This document shows, one piece after another, positions 26,931 to 64,000 of a DNA stretch of 64,000 nucleotides (its first letter is position 1; each line of letters begins with the position of its first letter). The stretch is from Asanoa ishikariensis (GTDB taxonomy: Bacteria; Actinomycetota; Actinomycetes; Mycobacteriales; Micromonosporaceae): NCBI RefSeq assembly GCF_900107455.1, contig NZ_FNQB01000001.1, positions 1 to 64,000 of the forward strand, read 5' to 3'. Made by a program: the position numbers and the translations under genes. The notes below the pieces were generated by a model that worked only from the letters and a program-made list of their open reading frames with translations, ran no database searches and had not been told where the DNA came from.

Positions 26931-28214
26931 ATGACGGGCGATCAGAACGGCCGTCACCGTGCGCCTGACACCAACGACGCCACCGCGGTCATCCCCCGCA
27001 TCACTGAGCGGCCCAAGGACGCTCCGGTGCGCCCGGCACCGACCGCGCGGCCGCACCCCCGCCCGCTCGACTTCCCGGCCGACGCCCGCAATCCGGTGCG
27101 GGATGTCCCGGTAACCCCCGGCCCGACGCTGCGCCCGCCGGCACCCGAGCCCGGCCCGGACGTGACCGCGGTCATTCCCAAGGTCATGCCGCCGGCAGCG
27201 ACGCGGGTCACAGCCCCTGACGCGACGGCGGTCATCCCAAAGGTCACGGTGTCGCCGGCGCCCGCGCGGGTCGTCGCGCCCGACGCGACCGCGGTGATCC
27301 CCAAGGTGGTCGACGAGACGGCCGTCATACCCAAGGTGCCGAGCCCGAAGACGCCGGCCACCCAGTCGCCCGACATGACCACCGTGATGGGCGCGGTGCC
27401 GCCGGCCCCGGCCAAGCCGGACCCGGCCGACCTGCCCGCGCCGGTGGCGCCGCGCCGGGGCGAGCGCGTGGTGCGCCTGCGGGCGGAGAACGTCGGCGAC
27501 GACTACAAGAGCGTCTACTCCGAGCTGACCCGGCCGACCGTGTGGTCGCGAATCCGGTCCGGCATCCGGGTCGGCGGCGAGCTGATGATCACCTTCGGCC
27601 TGGTGGTGCTGCTCTTCGCGGCGTACGAGGTCTGGGGTGTCGGAGTCGTCCAGGGCGGCAAGCAGGACTCCCTGGCCAACGCGCTCGAGCAGCAGTGGGC
27701 CAACGAGCCGGGCGACGACCCCACGGTCGGCCCGACCGCCGGCACCGGCGGCCTCGGCTCCAAGATCCACGGCATTGCGAAGCTATACATTCCGGCCCTC
27801 GCCCAGGAGTGGGTGGTGGTCGACGGGGTAACCCAGGCCGACATCCGCTACGCGCCGGGCCACTACCCGGACACCGCGCTGCCGGGCCAGATCGGCAACT
27901 TCTCCGTCGCCGGACACCGCAACCGGGCCACCTTCTGGCGGCTCGACGAGCTCAACAACGGCGACTCGATCGTGGTCGAGGACAAGGAGAACTGGTACGT
28001 CTACCACGTGGTGAAGACCCGGATCGTCAAGCCGACCCAGGTCGAGGTGGTCGCGCCGGTGCCGATGCTGCCAGGCTCGAAGCCGACGAAGGCGATGGTC
28101 ACGCTGACCACCTGCAACCCGAAGTTCGACAACTACCAGCGCCTGATCGTGCACGGCGAGCTGGTGCGCAGCCAGCCGAAGTCGCAGGGCGACCCGGCCG
28201 AGCTGAAGGGCTGA
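26931..28214 (+). CDS. Class E sortase with long Thr-motif cytosolic tail
   Basis: A 427-residue membrane transpeptidase that anchors proteins to the cell wall. The C-terminal half is a sortase E domain: [13 protein letters not shown] (catalytic His), [12 protein letters not shown] (TLTTC, catalytic Cys) and [10 protein letters not shown] with the family Arg. A membrane helix lies near residues 218-238 ([19 protein letters not shown]). The first 200 residues are cytosolic, Pro-rich and contain the motif [D/E]-x-T-A-V-I-P-[K/R]-[V/I] or a close form at Thr 18, 79, 99, 120 and 130, with a sixth variant at 150. This pattern resembles repeated phosphoacceptor sites, and the pknA/pknB genes are nearby. 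In this lineage, sortases typically recognise LAxTG-like signals. Confidence 0.9.
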
Positions 28215-58922: not shown

Positions 58923-60062
58923 CTAGAGTCCGAGATCCCGCGCGATCACCATGCGCTGGATCTCGGACGTACCCTCGCCGATTTCGAGGATTTTGGAGTC
59001 GCGCCAGAAGCGGGCGACGGGGAACTCGTTCATGAAGCCGTAACCGCCGTGGATCTGGGTGGCGTCGCGCGCGTTGTCCACCGCGCTTTCGCTGGCGTAC
59101 AGCTTGGCGATCGCCGCCTTGCGTTTGAAGTCGCGGCCGGCCAGCATTTCGGCGGCGGCGTCGTGGTAGGCCAGGCGGCCCAGGTGGGCGCGCTTCTCCA
59201 TGTCCGCGATCTTGAACTGGATCGCCTGGAAGCCGGCGATCGGCTGGCCGAAGGCGTGGCGCTCCTTGGCGTAGCGCACGGACTCGTCGACGCAACCCTG
59301 CGCCAGGCCGACGGCGAGCGCGGCGATCGCGATGCGGCCCTCGTCGAGGATGCGCAGGAACTGGGCGAAGCCTCGGCCACGCTCGCCGAGCAGGTTCTCG
59401 GCGGGGACGCGGACGTCTTCGAAGCTGAGCTCGTGGGTGTCGGAGGCGCACCAGCCGACCTTCGAGTAGCCCGGCGCTACCGTGAAGCCGGGCGTGCCCG
59501 ACGGCACGATGATGGTCGACAGTTCCTTGCTGCCGTCGGGGCGGGTGCCGGTCACCGCGGTCACCGTGACGAACGACGTGATGTCGGTGCCCGAGTTGGT
59601 GATGAAGGCCTTCGCCCCGTTGATCACCCACTCGTCGCCGTCGAGGACGGCGCGGGTGGCGGTGCCGCCGGCGTCGCTGCCGAAGCCGGGCTCGGTCAGG
59701 CCGAAGCCGGCCAGTGCCTCGCCCCGCAGCAACGGCGGGAGCCAGCGGCGCTTCTGCTCCTCGGTGCCGAACCGGTAGATCGGCATGGCGCCCAGCGAGA
59801 CCGCGGCCTCAAGGGTGATCGCCACGCTCGAGTCGATCCGGGCCAGCTCTTCGAGGGCCAGGCAGAGGGCGAAGTAGTCGCCGCCCATGCCGCCGTGCTC
59901 CTCGGCGAACGGCAGGCCGAACAGGCCCATCTTGCCCATCGCCGCGACGATGTCGTACGGGAAGGTGTGGTTGTCGTAGTGCTTGGCGATGACGGGCGCG
60001 ACCACGTCGTTGGCGAACTCGCGGACGCTTTCCCGCAGCGCCTCGTGCTCTTCGTTGAGCAT
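58923..60062 (-). CDS. Acyl-CoA dehydrogenase
   Basis: A 379-residue FAD enzyme that introduces the alpha,beta double bond in acyl-CoA (beta-oxidation or branched-chain amino acid breakdown). The three-domain ACAD layout is complete: the N-terminal helices (HEALRESVREFANDVVAPVI), LTEPGFGSDAGGTATRAV with the FAD/substrate loop, a middle beta domain (WCASDTHELSFEDVRVP), and the C-terminal helices (GFQAIQFKIADMEKRAHLGR, QIHGGYGFMNEFPVARFWRD) where the catalytic Glu is expected near the end (EIGEGTSEIQR). Linked by 16 bp to the acyl-CoA carboxylase subunit, so the operon resembles the actinobacterial leucine/isovalerate breakdown module. Confidence 0.92.
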   Translation of the reverse strand: MLNEEHEALRESVREFANDVVAPVIAKHYDNHTFPYDIVAAMGKMGLFGLPFAEEHGGMGGDYFALCLALEELARIDSSVAITLEAAVSLGAMPIYRFGTEEQKRRWLPPLLRGEALAGFGLTEPGFGSDAGGTATRAVLDGDEWVINGAKAFITNSGTDITSFVTVTAVTGTRPDGSKELSTIIVPSGTPGFTVAPGYSKVGWCASDTHELSFEDVRVPAENLLGERGRGFAQFLRILDEGRIAIAALAVGLAQGCVDESVRYAKERHAFGQPIAGFQAIQFKIADMEKRAHLGRLAYHDAAAEMLAGRDFKRKAAIAKLYASESAVDNARDATQIHGGYGFMNEFPVARFWRDSKILEIGEGTSEIQRMVIARDLGL

Positions 60063-60078
60063 GGCGGGCTCCTTGTGG

Positions 60079-61608
60079 TTAGACGGGTGTCACGCCGTGG
60101 CGACGGCGGGAGAAGTGGCGGTCCTTGCCCTGGGCGGCCGCGTAGCGGGCGACCAGCTCGGCGCGCAGCAGCTCGGGCGGCACGATCGCGTCGATCACGA
60201 GCTCGCTCGCGAGGTGGACGATGTCGATGTCCCGCTCGTAGGCCTCGCGCCGCTCGCTGACGAAGGCGGCCCGCGCCTCCGGGTCCTCGATCGCGGCGAT
60301 CTTGTTTGCGTAGACCGCGTTGACGGCGGCCTCGGCGCCCATCACCGCGATCTTCGCGGTCGGCAGGGCGATGGTCGCGTCGGGCATGAAACCGGGGCCG
60401 GCCATCGCATAAAGGCCGGCACCGTACGCCTTGCGGACCACGACGCAGATCTTCGGCACGGTGGCCTCGGAGATCGCGGTGATCATCTTGGCGCCGTGCC
60501 GGATGATCCCCTGCTTTTCGACGGCGGTGCCGACCATGAAGCCGGGCACGTCGGAGAGGAAGAGCAGCGGCACGTTGAACGCGTCGCAAAGCTGGACGAA
60601 CCTGGTGGCCTTGTCGGCGGAGTCGACGAACAGCACGCCGCCCTTGAACATCGAGTTGTTGGCCACGACGCCGACCACCTGGCCGTCGAGACGGCCGAAC
60701 CCGATCGTCAGCTCCTTCGCCCAGAGGGCCTGGATCTCGAAGAACGTGCCCTCGTCGAGCAGCCCCTTGGCGAACTTGCGCATGTCGAAGGCCTGCCGCT
60801 CGCTGGGCGGCACCATCGCGGCGAGGTCGGCCTGCGGCGGGGCGACCGCGGCAAGAGCCGGCGGCTGCTCGGTGTAGTTGGCCGGCAGGTAGGACAGGTA
60901 GCGGCGGACCGTCTCGAGCGCCTCGTCCTCGGTCTTGCAGAGGAAATGGCCGACGCCGGACTCGCGGGTGTGCACGGCGGCGCCGCCCATCGCCTCCAGC
61001 GTGGTCTTCTCACCGGTGACCATCTCGACCATGCGGTCGGAGCCGAGGTACATGCTGGCGTTGCCGTCGACCATCGCGACCACGTCGCAGAACGCCGGGA
61101 TGTAGGCGCCGCCGGCCGCGGACGGGCCGAACAGCGCGCAGACCTGCGGGATCGAGCCGGAGGCGCGGACCTGGTTCCAGAAGATGTGCCCGGCGCCGCG
61201 GCGGCCGGGGAACAGGTCGACCTGGTCGGTGATCCGGGCGCCGGCCGAGTCGACCAGGTAGACCATCGGCAGGCCGGACTGATAGGCCCGCTCGATGATC
61301 CGGATGATCTTCTCGACGGTACGCGCGCCCCACGAGCCGGCCTTCACGGTCGAGTCGTTGGCCATCAGGCAGACCCGGCGGCCGTCGATGGTCGCCTGGC
61401 CGGTGATCACGCCGTCGGCCGGCAGGCCCTCGGCCAGGGCGTTGGCGTAGAGCCCGTCTTCGACGAAGGAGCCCTCGTCGACCAGATGGGCCACCCGCTC
61501 GCGGGCGAACATCTTGCCCTTGGCCGCGTTGGACGCGTGGTAGCGCTCCGCGCCACCGGCCCGGACCCGCTTGCCGAGCTGCTCGAGATCTTCGTCGTCG
61601 AGTGCCAC
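60079..61608 (-). CDS. Acyl-CoA carboxylase carboxyltransferase (beta) subunit
   Basis: A 509-residue biotin-dependent carboxyltransferase that transfers CO2 from biotin to an acyl-CoA. It has two crotonase-like halves. Recognised segments are AERYHASNAAKGKMFARERV, LMANDSTVKAGSWGARTVEK, LVDSAGARITDQVDLFPGRR and LFGPSAAGGAYIPAFCDVVA in the N half, and LFLSDVPGFMVGTAVEKQGI with VVRKAYGAGLYAMAGPGF in the C half. The N-half pattern is closest to the methylcrotonyl/AccD1-like group. The biotinylated alpha subunit is not in the window. Co-transcribed with the acyl-CoA dehydrogenase, 16 bp apart. Leucine catabolism is the likely role. Confidence 0.92.
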   Translation of the reverse strand: MALDDEDLEQLGKRVRAGGAERYHASNAAKGKMFARERVAHLVDEGSFVEDGLYANALAEGLPADGVITGQATIDGRRVCLMANDSTVKAGSWGARTVEKIIRIIERAYQSGLPMVYLVDSAGARITDQVDLFPGRRGAGHIFWNQVRASGSIPQVCALFGPSAAGGAYIPAFCDVVAMVDGNASMYLGSDRMVEMVTGEKTTLEAMGGAAVHTRESGVGHFLCKTEDEALETVRRYLSYLPANYTEQPPALAAVAPPQADLAAMVPPSERQAFDMRKFAKGLLDEGTFFEIQALWAKELTIGFGRLDGQVVGVVANNSMFKGGVLFVDSADKATRFVQLCDAFNVPLLFLSDVPGFMVGTAVEKQGIIRHGAKMITAISEATVPKICVVVRKAYGAGLYAMAGPGFMPDATIALPTAKIAVMGAEAAVNAVYANKIAAIEDPEARAAFVSERREAYERDIDIVHLASELVIDAIVPPELLRAELVARYAAAQGKDRHFSRRRHGVTPV

Positions 61609-61664
61609 ACCGACCCCTTCGCCAACGCGACTGAACTATCGTTAAGGTACTACATCCGAATACG

Positions 61665-61695
61665 AAAGGGCCCCCGCAGGTCGCGGGGGCCCTTT
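61665..61695. terminator. Hairpin terminator between chaplin-like and carboxylase genes
   Basis: AAAGGGCCCCCGC and GCGGGGGCCCTTT form a perfect 13-bp stem with a 5-nt loop; T tracts flank it on both sides. It lies 31 bp beyond the minus-strand stop at 61726. Confidence 0.85.
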
Positions 61696-61725
61696 TTCGT
61701 GCGGGTCGTGCGGTCGTGCGGTGGA

Positions 61726-63270
61726 TCAGTTGAGGGCGAGCGCCCCGCCCTGGCTCTGCGCGAAGGCGACGCCACCGGCGGCGGCGATCGCGTTGCCGCT
61801 GATGTCGACCGGGATCTGGATCGGGGTGTACACCTGGGTGCCGTTGCCGATGCCGTAGTTCCCGGTGGTGATCAGGTTGGTGCCACCGCCGTTGGAGGCG
61901 ACAGCGCCGCCACGCGGACCGCGCTGGTCGTGCTTCTTGCCGTGCTTGCCGTGACCACGGTCGTCGTCGTCGTAGTCGTCACCCTCGGTGGCACCGGCCG
62001 AGCGGGCGCCCGGCGCGTCGGCCATCTTGGGGGCGGCGGCTGCGGGGGCGGTGTTCTGCCCCAGCGACCCGACGACCGGCAGGCCGGCGACGACGGGGAG
62101 CGAGCCGAGAACCGGCAGCGCCTCGTCGCGGGCACCCTCGGAACGAGCGCTCTCGTTGAGAGCGATCGCGCCACCGTCGCACTGCGCGAACGCGACAGCC
62201 GCAGCACCGGCGATCGAGTTGCCGCAGACGTCGATCGGAATCTGGATCGGCGCGTACACCTGGGTGCCGTTGGCGATGCCGTAGTTGCCGGTCGTGATGA
62301 CGTTGGTGCCCTCGGAGCGGGCGCTCTCGTTGACGGCGACCGCGCCACCGTCGCAAGCCGCGAACGCGACACCAGCGGCGGCGGCGATGCCGTTGCCGCA
62401 GATGCTGATCGGCGCCTGGATCGGCGCGTACAGCTGGGTGCCGTTGCCGATGCCGAAGTTGTTGCCGGTGAAGAGCGTCGTGCCGCCGTTGCCGCCGTTG
62501 TCACGGTGGCCACGGCCGTCGTGGTCACGGCCGTCGTGGCCACGACCGTCGTAGTCGTCGCCCTCCGCGCGAGCGCTCTCGTTGACCGCAGCCGCGCCGC
62601 CGTCGCACGAGGCGAAGGCAACCGCGCCGATCAGCGGGATCGAGTTGCCGCAGATGCTGATCGGAACCTGGATCGGCGCGTAGACCTGGGTGCCGTTCAG
62701 GATCCCGTAGTTGCCCGACGAGACGATGTTGGTCGCCTGGTCGTTCCAAGCACCCTTGTTCTTCTTGTGCTTCTTGCTGCCCTCGGCCATCGCGAGAGCC
62801 TCGTCGGAGGCGTCCTTGTGGCTCTTGTGGTAGCCACCGTCGTTCTTGTCGCTGCTCTCGCCGCCACCGTTGACGGCCAGGGCGCCACCGTCACACGCGG
62901 CGAACGCCACGCCGGCCGCGGCCGCGATGCCGTTGCCGCAGACGTCGATGACGGCCTGGATCGGCGCCACGAGCTGAGTGCCGTTGCCGATGCCGAAGTT
63001 GCCCGACGAGACGATGTTGCCGCCGCCGCCCACGCCGTTGACTGCGGCTGCGCCGCCGTCACACTGCGCGAACGCGACGCCGCCGGCGCCGGCGATGCTG
63101 TTGCCGCAGATGTCCGCGACGATCTGGATCGGCGTCACGACCTGGGTGCCGTTGCCGATGCCGAAGTTGCCGTTGGTGATGACGTCGGCCTGAGCCGCCG
63201 CCTGCGTCGCGAGCAGACCACCAGCCGCCATGACGCCAACGCTGATGGACTTGCGAACCCAAGTCTTCAT
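61726..63270 (-). CDS. Secreted chaplin-like protein with six repeats and charged linkers
   Basis: A 514-residue exported protein. Signal peptide (KSISVGVMAAGGLLATQAAA), then six approx. 48-residue repeats of the pattern GNFGIGNGTQ-x-x-x-PIQ-x-x-x-x-x-CGN-(I)-x-x-x-x-x-VAFA-x-C-x-GGA, starting near residues 33, 88, 186, 260, 320 and 470. In repeats 1-5 two Cys are 14-15 residues apart, like the disulfide pair of chaplins (DUF320). The sixth has Ser at both positions (DISGNAIAAAGGVAFAQSQG). Linkers are rich in charge: SDKNDGGYHKSHKDASDE, GDDYDGRGHDGRDHDGRG and DDYDDDDRGHGKHGKKHDQR. Chaplins coat aerial structures as amyloid surfactants. This one is far longer than usual, which suggests a cell-wall or spore-coat amyloid. 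GAAAGG precedes ATG 63270. Confidence 0.78.
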   Translation of the reverse strand: MKTWVRKSISVGVMAAGGLLATQAAAQADVITNGNFGIGNGTQVVTPIQIVADICGNSIAGAGGVAFAQCDGGAAAVNGVGGGGNIVSSGNFGIGNGTQLVAPIQAVIDVCGNGIAAAAGVAFAACDGGALAVNGGGESSDKNDGGYHKSHKDASDEALAMAEGSKKHKKNKGAWNDQATNIVSSGNYGILNGTQVYAPIQVPISICGNSIPLIGAVAFASCDGGAAAVNESARAEGDDYDGRGHDGRDHDGRGHRDNGGNGGTTLFTGNNFGIGNGTQLYAPIQAPISICGNGIAAAAGVAFAACDGGAVAVNESARSEGTNVITTGNYGIANGTQVYAPIQIPIDVCGNSIAGAAAVAFAQCDGGAIALNESARSEGARDEALPVLGSLPVVAGLPVVGSLGQNTAPAAAAPKMADAPGARSAGATEGDDYDDDDRGHGKHGKKHDQRGPRGGAVASNGGGTNLITTGNYGIGNGTQVYTPIQIPVDISGNAIAAAGGVAFAQSQGGALALN

Positions 63271-63522
63271 TGGGTGAAGTGACCTTTCAATAATGTCAGT
63301 AAGAGGGTGTTGCCGTGGTGTCGCTGTCCGGGCGCGACGGTGCCGTGAGGTGCCCTGACTCCGCCTGTCGACGTGCGCCCAGGTGTGGTTCGTGATGTCC
63401 GGCCAGGGTTTCGCCGCTAGTGCGAGCGGTCATCGGAATCCCTGATCTGCCGCGCTACGCGGGCCGGGTGGCCCGGTGGGGCTGGTCGGCTCCTGCCCGT
63501 CGCCGGTGCAGGTCCTTCATCA
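63271..63522. other. Upstream region of the chaplin-like gene
   Basis: This 252-bp interval lies between the chaplin-like gene and the end of the partial gene on the same strand. No gene is supported. It should hold the chaplin-like promoter; I see no clear hexamers, which would fit use of an alternative sigma factor. Confidence 0.4.
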
Positions 63523-64000
63523 CTAGTCAGGTGAGACGGTCGGTTCCTCGGCGTCACGCCGCGGTACCACTGTGTCGGCCGATTTCGGCAGCAACTGGTA
63601 GGCCAGCATGCTGTCTGCGACCGACGAGGGAACGGTGGCGAACGCACCACCGCCCATCGGCGAACCCGCCGCATTGGCCGGGGTCCCCGAAGCACTGCCT
63701 TCACCCCGTGTGGGCACGGGATACGGCAGGCTGGGCGCATCGCCCTTGTTCCGGGACGACACGGTCTCGACCGCGCGTTCCGGCCGGCCGGCGTGCTGCC
63801 GGACGGTGCTCGTCTCGGTGTGAGCGGCCCGAAGTGTGGCCGGTGTGGCCGCACCCGGAGCGGTCGTGCCGGTCGTGCCGGATGACACGCCTCCGTGCAC
63901 GCCGACGAGACCGTTGGGCGTGACAACCGAGGTTGGCCGGCCGCGGGGGCCGGGCAGAGTGCCGGTCACCGTCCTGGCCACCACGCCGACCGTGCTGAAC
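63523..64000 (-). CDS. 3' part of an unidentified gene (cut by window end)
   Basis: The minus-strand frame is open from the window edge to the stop at 63523-63525 and encodes at least 158 residues, rich in Thr, Ser, Gly, Pro and Ala with little hydrophobic core (VSSGTTGTTAPGAATPATLR, GDAPSLPYPVPTRGEGSASG), ending SADTVVPRRDAEEPTVSPD. It may be the disordered C-terminal part of a secreted or surface protein. An internal GTG (63982-63984) could be a start but lacks an evident ribosome-binding site. It points in the same direction as the chaplin-like gene, 252 bp upstream of its start. Confidence 0.5.
   Translation of the reverse strand, partial: FSTVGVVARTVTGTLPGPRGRPTSVVTPNGLVGVHGGVSSGTTGTTAPGAATPATLRAAHTETSTVRQHAGRPERAVETVSSRNKGDAPSLPYPVPTRGEGSASGTPANAAGSPMGGGAFATVPSSVADSMLAYQLLPKSADTVVPRRDAEEPTVSPD

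Follow-up and report, generated by a model that had tools for sequence, protein, structure and literature searches.

A gene on the minus strand of the 64,000-nucleotide stretch of DNA analysed here (the window), from the filamentous soil bacterium Asanoa ishikariensis, encodes a protein with six similar repeats, five of which contain a pair of cysteines while the last contains none. The locus raises the question of whether this protein is a chaplin, built of the module found in water-repellent coats, and what a Cys-free repeat at its very end might mean for its role. Judged from its sequence, the protein is not of a new kind but a genuine variant within an established family of coat proteins, and its Cys-free end domain has counterparts among related genera.

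A six-domain chaplin gene

The gene is an open reading frame with an ATG start that encodes 514 aa followed by a stop codon. Its parts are as follows.

61726..63270, minus strand: predicted six-domain secreted chaplin gene (open reading frame, 514 aa; PF03777 55.1 bits, cut-off 21)
63187..63270, minus strand: putative signal peptide, residues 1-28 (MKTWVRKSISVGVMAAGGLLATQAAAQA), cleavage inferred before D29 (read from sequence)
63037..63183, minus strand: chaplin domain 1, residues 30-78, two Cys (55/70)
62869..63015, minus strand: chaplin domain 2, residues 86-134, two Cys (111/126)
62728..62868, minus strand: linker 2, residues 135-181 (47 aa), K/H/D-rich
62581..62727, minus strand: chaplin domain 3, residues 182-230, two Cys (207/222)
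62479..62580, minus strand: linker 3, residues 231-264 (34 aa), D/R/H/G repeats
62506-62552: 15-bp tandem repeat in the linker 3 coding region
62329..62478, minus strand: chaplin domain 4, residues 265-314, two Cys (291/306)
62155..62301, minus strand: chaplin domain 5, residues 324-372, two Cys (349/364)
61876..62154, minus strand: linker 5, residues 373-465 (93 aa), the longest, a hydrophobic block followed by a charged D/K/H-rich block
61729..61875, minus strand: chaplin domain 6, residues 466-514, Ser at the two Cys sites, end of the protein

The six repeats, each 49-50 aa long with pairwise identities of 59-82%, are laid out as two close pairs (1-2 and 4-5, with linkers of 7 and 9 aa) and two lone repeats, 3 and 6, residue 514 being the last of both repeat 6 and the protein. 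Searched against Pfam-A, the whole protein matched PF03777 (the ChpA-C family, formerly DUF320) with 55.1 bits and an E-value of 6.8e-15, well above the curated cut-off of 21 bits, and four stretches individually reached E up to 1. All six repeats were matched by a 19-row domain model, which was built in part from the window protein's own repeats. The chaplin-like nature of the six repeats, proposed in a first-pass annotation of this DNA, is thereby borne out, as is its residue-level description of five repeats with a Cys pair and a last one with Ser at both sites: the Cys are confined to domains 1-5, one pair each and 15 residues apart, and repeat 6 reads DISGNA...AQSQGG.

Inspected by eye, the N-terminus has the typical basic-hydrophobic-AxA arrangement of a candidate Sec-type signal, which is nearly identical in four other full-length Asanoa proteins. 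A search for relatives of solved structure returned none at E up to 1, and the predicted structures were of low confidence, both for the whole protein (mean pLDDT 51.6, 28 alignment rows) and for domains 1-2 alone (mean pLDDT 60.3, 38 alignment rows). A phage origin was rejected, PHROGs giving only two matches, with E-values of 0.036 and 0.045. An alignment of five Asanoa genomes shows strong conservation of the gene's 5' region; a promoter scan of 61600-63700, which covers the sigma-70 type alone, found none. Between the chaplin stop codon and the next gene lies a perfect 13-bp inverted repeat (AAAGGGCCCCCGC, loop of 5) at 61665-61697, which was read by eye, is absent from the listing of that scan and is likely a terminator.

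Comparison with chaplins of Streptomyces and other families

The short chaplins of Streptomyces (ChpD-H) are single PF03777 domains of about 55 aa without a sortase signal, and the long ones (ChpA-C) are sortase-anchored proteins with two domains and a C-terminal sorting signal. Like the short chaplins, the window protein is predicted to be secreted and carries no sortase signal, and it contains both of their domain types, the Cys-bearing one of ChpD, F, G and H and the Cys-free one of ChpE; unlike them, it joins six domains by long charged linkers into one 514-aa chain. With the long chaplins it shares the presence of more than one domain per chain, and its Cys-free domain 6 has a parallel in the C-terminal domain of ChpB (PMC13251363) and in a further protein, L222, with the Cys pattern 2,0. 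It differs from the long class in having six domains and in ending at the last of them. An LPXTG motif was looked for in the 514-aa protein and none was found, and a sortase-anchored long chaplin was rejected as its identity on these grounds. Its domains place the protein in the PF03777 family, yet it fits neither of the two chaplin classes, short or long.

Two Cys per domain, the usual state in the family, are found in five of the six domains, and domain 6 resembles the known exceptions. A Cys-less chaplin domain is not new as such, because ChpE and the C-terminal domain of ChpB both lack Cys (PMC5618241, PMC7766987, PMC13251363). Among 34 Streptomyces-type controls with 44 domains among the matches listed, two Cys were present in 42 domains and none in two, namely one ChpE-like single domain and one ChpB-like second domain of a two-domain protein. 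Streptomyces-type chaplin domains have been described as containing three GN motifs, 12-13 residues apart (PMC13251363). By our reading, the middle [C/S]GN is present in 6/6 domains of the window protein and the GN beside the second Cys, which most Streptomyces-type controls possess, in 0/6.

Chaplin-like proteins have been reported beyond the streptomycetes in Stackebrandtia, Thermobifida, Streptosporangium, Nocardiopsis and Arthrobacter (PMC4255298). The 19-row model gave matches in 76 of the 296 genomes of a class-wide sample, representing 25 of 106 genera, and multi-gene or multi-domain chaplins are therefore not confined to Micromonosporaceae; eight genomes taken as Streptomyces from canonical sequences gave 5 to 11 domain matches each. 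Outside Micromonosporaceae, 20 proteins of the class were retrieved, 17 from family f29, which we guess to be the Streptosporangiaceae, and three from family f46. The multi-domain chaplins of f29 have four to eight domains per chain, as in the window type. In 13 of the 17 (L179-L191), however, it is the first domain that is Cys-free, and a C-terminal hydrophobic segment with basic residues is present, whereas the window chaplin has a Cys-free last domain and ends there; the other four carry a Cys pair in all domains. The f46 proteins (L192, L197 and L198) have 6-10 domains, none with Cys. In open-access papers, to which the literature search was confined and which were available as excerpts, no multi-domain Micromonosporaceae chaplin was found, and prior publication is possible.

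The chaplin gene set of Asanoa and a proposed role

Searched with the 19-row model at E up to 0.05, the 9.09 Mb genome of A. ishikariensis contains seven chaplin domains, six in the window gene and one at C4:1316423. This second chaplin (G000:C4:1316420, L003), which scores 23.0 bits against PF03777 (cut-off 21), consists of a single domain with a Cys pair, an LPKTG motif, a hydrophobic segment and a basic tail. The two proteins thus have a PF03777 domain and a genome in common but differ in build, one Cys-pair domain with a presumed wall anchor standing against six unanchored domains. The same two genes occur in the other five Asanoa genomes, one of which (G002) has one extra match at E = 0.048; both the LPXTG single-domain chaplin and sortases were found in 6/6 genomes. 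Within the window, a sortase gene (PF04203, 117 bits) is located at 27783-28166 on the plus strand.

In Streptomyces, the minimal set needed for a chaplin apparatus seems to consist of ChpC, ChpE and ChpH, and ChpE, which has no Cys and is expressed early, is thought to coordinate assembly (PMC3079736). We read the two Asanoa genes as holding the anchored, Cys-free and Cys-bearing elements of such a set. With slightly better than even confidence, we propose that one secreted, unanchored six-domain chain serves as the several short chaplins of Streptomyces do, with the two domain types in fixed proportion. The chain would be exported without an anchor, its six amyloid-prone chaplin domains spaced by charged, disordered linkers, and the five presumably disulfide-bearing, ChpH-type domains would be the building blocks of a hydrophobic layer on spores or hyphae. 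The ChpE-type end domain, free of Cys and set on its long linker, could act as a differently behaving unit, either surface-active or coordinating assembly, and a single chain would let Cys-bearing and Cys-free types co-assemble in fixed proportion. Attachment of the layer to the wall probably falls to the separate single-domain LPXTG chaplin, in a role like that of ChpC. That the 514-aa protein forms a surface fibre or coat, as had been suggested at first reading, may fairly be inferred.

Aerial mycelium is scant in most Micromonosporaceae, which speaks for an alternative in which the protein is mainly a secreted surfactant or adhesin, acting in attachment or hyphal aggregation, and not a structural aerial coat. 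Its lack of an LPXTG motif would suit such a function, and attachment to surfaces is a further role of some chaplins (PMC4255298). We nevertheless consider this alternative rather unlikely, as an LPXTG single-domain chaplin throughout Asanoa fits an anchored layer. The preferred reading, a single chain in the place of several short chaplins, would suggest a chaplin-type layer for Micromonosporaceae, a family in which hydrophobic surface proteins of other kinds have recently been described from Actinoplanes missouriensis (PMC13251363).

The Cys-free end domain within Asanoa

Orthologues of the window chaplin were identified in five other Asanoa genomes, the nearest named relatives being A. hainanensis (78% identity in the best segment), A. 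iriomotensis and A. siamensis. Four of the orthologues are full length; in A. siamensis the orthologue is divided between two contigs (L009 and L024). The Cys-less last repeat is present in all five full-length proteins, the window's own included, and in the end piece (L024) of the sixth. Sequencing error, which would have made the last repeat of the window protein only apparently Cys-less, was rejected because the Asanoa orthologues share the same Ser/Ser state, the 81%-identical L005 agreeing with three more full-length orthologues and with L024. Domain 3 is more variable: its Cys pair, present in the window protein, is missing in A. iriomotensis, A. siamensis and two other Asanoa orthologues, leaving this domain Cys-free in four of the six genomes.

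Distribution of Cys-free domains in Micromonosporaceae

A total of 300 Micromonosporaceae genomes were sampled, 138 of which, from 27 of 42 genera, gave PF03777 matches. From 139 loci, picked by match strength and hence favouring multi-domain proteins, 109 distinct proteins were obtained (109 of 110 rows kept), and 90 of these were complete at the 3' end and contained three or more domains. The end-domain count uses these 90; a 91st protein with enough domains, L009, was dropped for its cut 3' end. Counts of linkers and outer Cys also leave out 5'-cut proteins and cover 41 proteins whose last domain is Cys-free (class A) and 48 whose last domain has a Cys pair (class B). The profile covers the last domain of L047 and of L048 only in part. 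The first-pass annotation had suggested a novel subfamily on the strength of length and linker chemistry; the length and architecture are indeed unlike those of the short and long streptomycete chaplins, but with 90 of 109 proteins being multi-domain they are not the oddity of one protein.

The 415 domains surveyed contained either two Cys (278) or none (137), and among 124 representatives at 70% identity the numbers were 76 and 48. Cys are therefore gained and lost as a pair, no domain having a single one, as expected of a disulfide. Where the protein ends within 6 residues of its last domain, that domain is Cys-free in 42/42 cases; where a longer C-terminal tail follows, it is Cys-free in 0/48 and carries a Cys pair in 48/48. 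The Cys-less last unit noted in the window protein is thus a feature of 42 of the 90 proteins, while the 48 tailed ones keep the pair. It is not a mark of the end alone, because first and inner domains may also be Cys-free, in class A and class B alike, and the terminal domains of the 42 tail-less proteins make up only 42 of the 137 Cys-free domains. Both types of domain occur together in 82 of the 91 multi-domain proteins, and nine have no Cys-free domain.

Although perfect in the sample, the association between end type and Cys state rests on few events and not on 90 independent cases, because the tree requires about five changes between end types, three of them forced by well-supported branches (range 3-5); this tree was built on the signal and first two domains of 88 of 89 proteins, a short alignment with a bootstrap that had not settled. 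The longest linker directly precedes the end domain in 39/41 class A proteins, compared with 4/48 of class B. In 32/41 class A proteins (tallied from the table, with genera assigned by hand) the end domain resembles a Cys-bearing domain within the same chain more closely than any end domain from another genus, a result that holds for 8/14 genera by majority. This suggests that domains are homogenised within chains while the Cys-free state of the last one seems to be kept.

Published findings on the chaplin disulfide point in different directions. Removal of Cys from ChpH compromised aerial hyphae (PMC3079736), fibrils form in vitro without Cys, and ChpE has none (PMC5618249, PMC3079736). Because Cys are dispensable for fibrils in vitro, the Cys-free domain need not differ in function, and neutral drift offers another explanation, in which a terminal repeat no longer needed its disulfide and acquired no distinct function. 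The switching of inner domain 3 between the two states within Asanoa and the small number of changes on the tree are both consistent with drift. Against drift stand the strict division between tail-less and tailed proteins, the absence of any domain caught with a single Cys and the persistence of the Cys-free state although 32 of 41 end domains are more like a Cys-bearing domain of their own protein than like any end domain of another genus, and we regard it as unlikely. Whichever way the disulfide acts, a natural chain with both Cys types at fixed positions, in a genus where two chaplin genes were found, makes the question directly testable.

Further Cys lie outside the end domain in many class A proteins. 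One Cys at most 14 residues before the Cys-free end domain and another in the protein's last residues are present together in 22/41; a further 17/41 have neither, 2/41 only the first and 0/41 only the second. This outer pair was seen in Dactylosporangium, Virgisporangium, a Hamadaea MAG and three further genera (L039-L046, L026, L027, L031, L038, L069 and others), and is absent in Asanoa. It looks as if the disulfide had been shifted outwards, from within the end domain to either side of it.

Linkers

The linkers of the window chaplin are strongly charged, D/E/K/R/H making up about 31% of linker residues compared with 3% inside the domains, and the charged polar stretches quoted in the initial description are present. 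Class medians are 24% in class A and 28.5% in class B, and across genera the charge of the linkers is preserved while their sequence is not. Within Asanoa, linker 5 retains an ALP-hydrophobic block (ALPVLGSLPVVAGLPVVGSL) and the motif ATEGDDYD. We read the linkers as disordered spacers, with nothing in their composition suggesting metal. The divalent-metal binding first proposed for them, and with it a polyampholyte coat in which chaplin domains form the fibres and His/Asp-containing linkers hold the metal, is very improbable, for all the charge of these linkers and the His/Cys-rich ones of some relatives (L012), given just three His in each of linkers 2, 3 and 5, no metal-site motif seen by eye in the linkers of the 514-aa protein, linker sequences that vary between genera, class B linkers that are equally charged and mostly short among the matches listed, and the high charge expected of any soluble disordered spacer. 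As an alternation of amyloid-prone domains and linkers, the window chaplin offers a designable block protein.

An upstream predicted secreted partner

Directly upstream of the chaplin gene, on the same strand and separated from it by 252 bp, lies a second gene that extends beyond the window.

63523..64000, continuing to G000:C2:64683 (L050:8524-9684), minus strand: putative secreted partner gene, 386 aa, C-terminus ...DAEEPTVSPD

The encoded protein is of low complexity with a signal-like N-terminus, and had no match in Pfam or NCBIfam up to E = 1. Relatives of the partner (E below 0.01) precede a chaplin gene on its strand in 36/36 loci from 24 genomes, an adjacency that arises partly by choice because the loci were fetched for their chaplins. 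A search with the C-terminus found the partner in at least 87 of 300 Micromonosporaceae genomes and 14 of 42 genera, the best 14 candidates per genome being scored, so that copies of this low-complexity protein may be missed; in the class-wide sample of 296 genomes it was found only in the own genome. In at least 60 of the 87 partner genomes a chaplin domain lies 0.26-1.1 kb downstream on the same strand among the matches listed. The listed chaplin domain is 5.5 kb from the partner in G045, on another contig in G183 and elsewhere than beside the partner in G069 and G101, and none was found in G152 and G245; the chaplin coordinates of the other 21 genomes fall outside the matches listed.

A predicted secreted partner upstream is therefore common to many relatives. 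Among the matches listed, a partner match was obtained for at least 79 of the 138 PF03777-positive genomes but not for the other 59, which include genomes with class A chaplins (among them G009, G014, G020, G021 and G022), and a general role of the partner is disfavoured because of these 59. A wider reading, which we put forward tentatively as possible rather than probable, is that the hydrophobic coat of Micromonosporaceae is made by a covalently fused chaplin apparatus, Cys-bearing building blocks and a dedicated Cys-free end domain sharing an unanchored chain, with the outer Cys as a staple in 22/41 class A proteins and, in many genera, a family-specific, predicted secreted partner from the gene just upstream (C-terminus PTVSPD or similar) that would assist assembly as rodlins do in Streptomyces.

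Chaplin and partner are together flanked by genes that we take to be biotin carboxylase-like on one side and carboxyltransferase-/acyl-CoA dehydrogenase-like on the other (58923-61608; L050:9826-11190). In another genome (G056:C1:2592946-2593167) the partner lies beside a six-domain chaplin and has a stop codon inside the matched C-terminal part.
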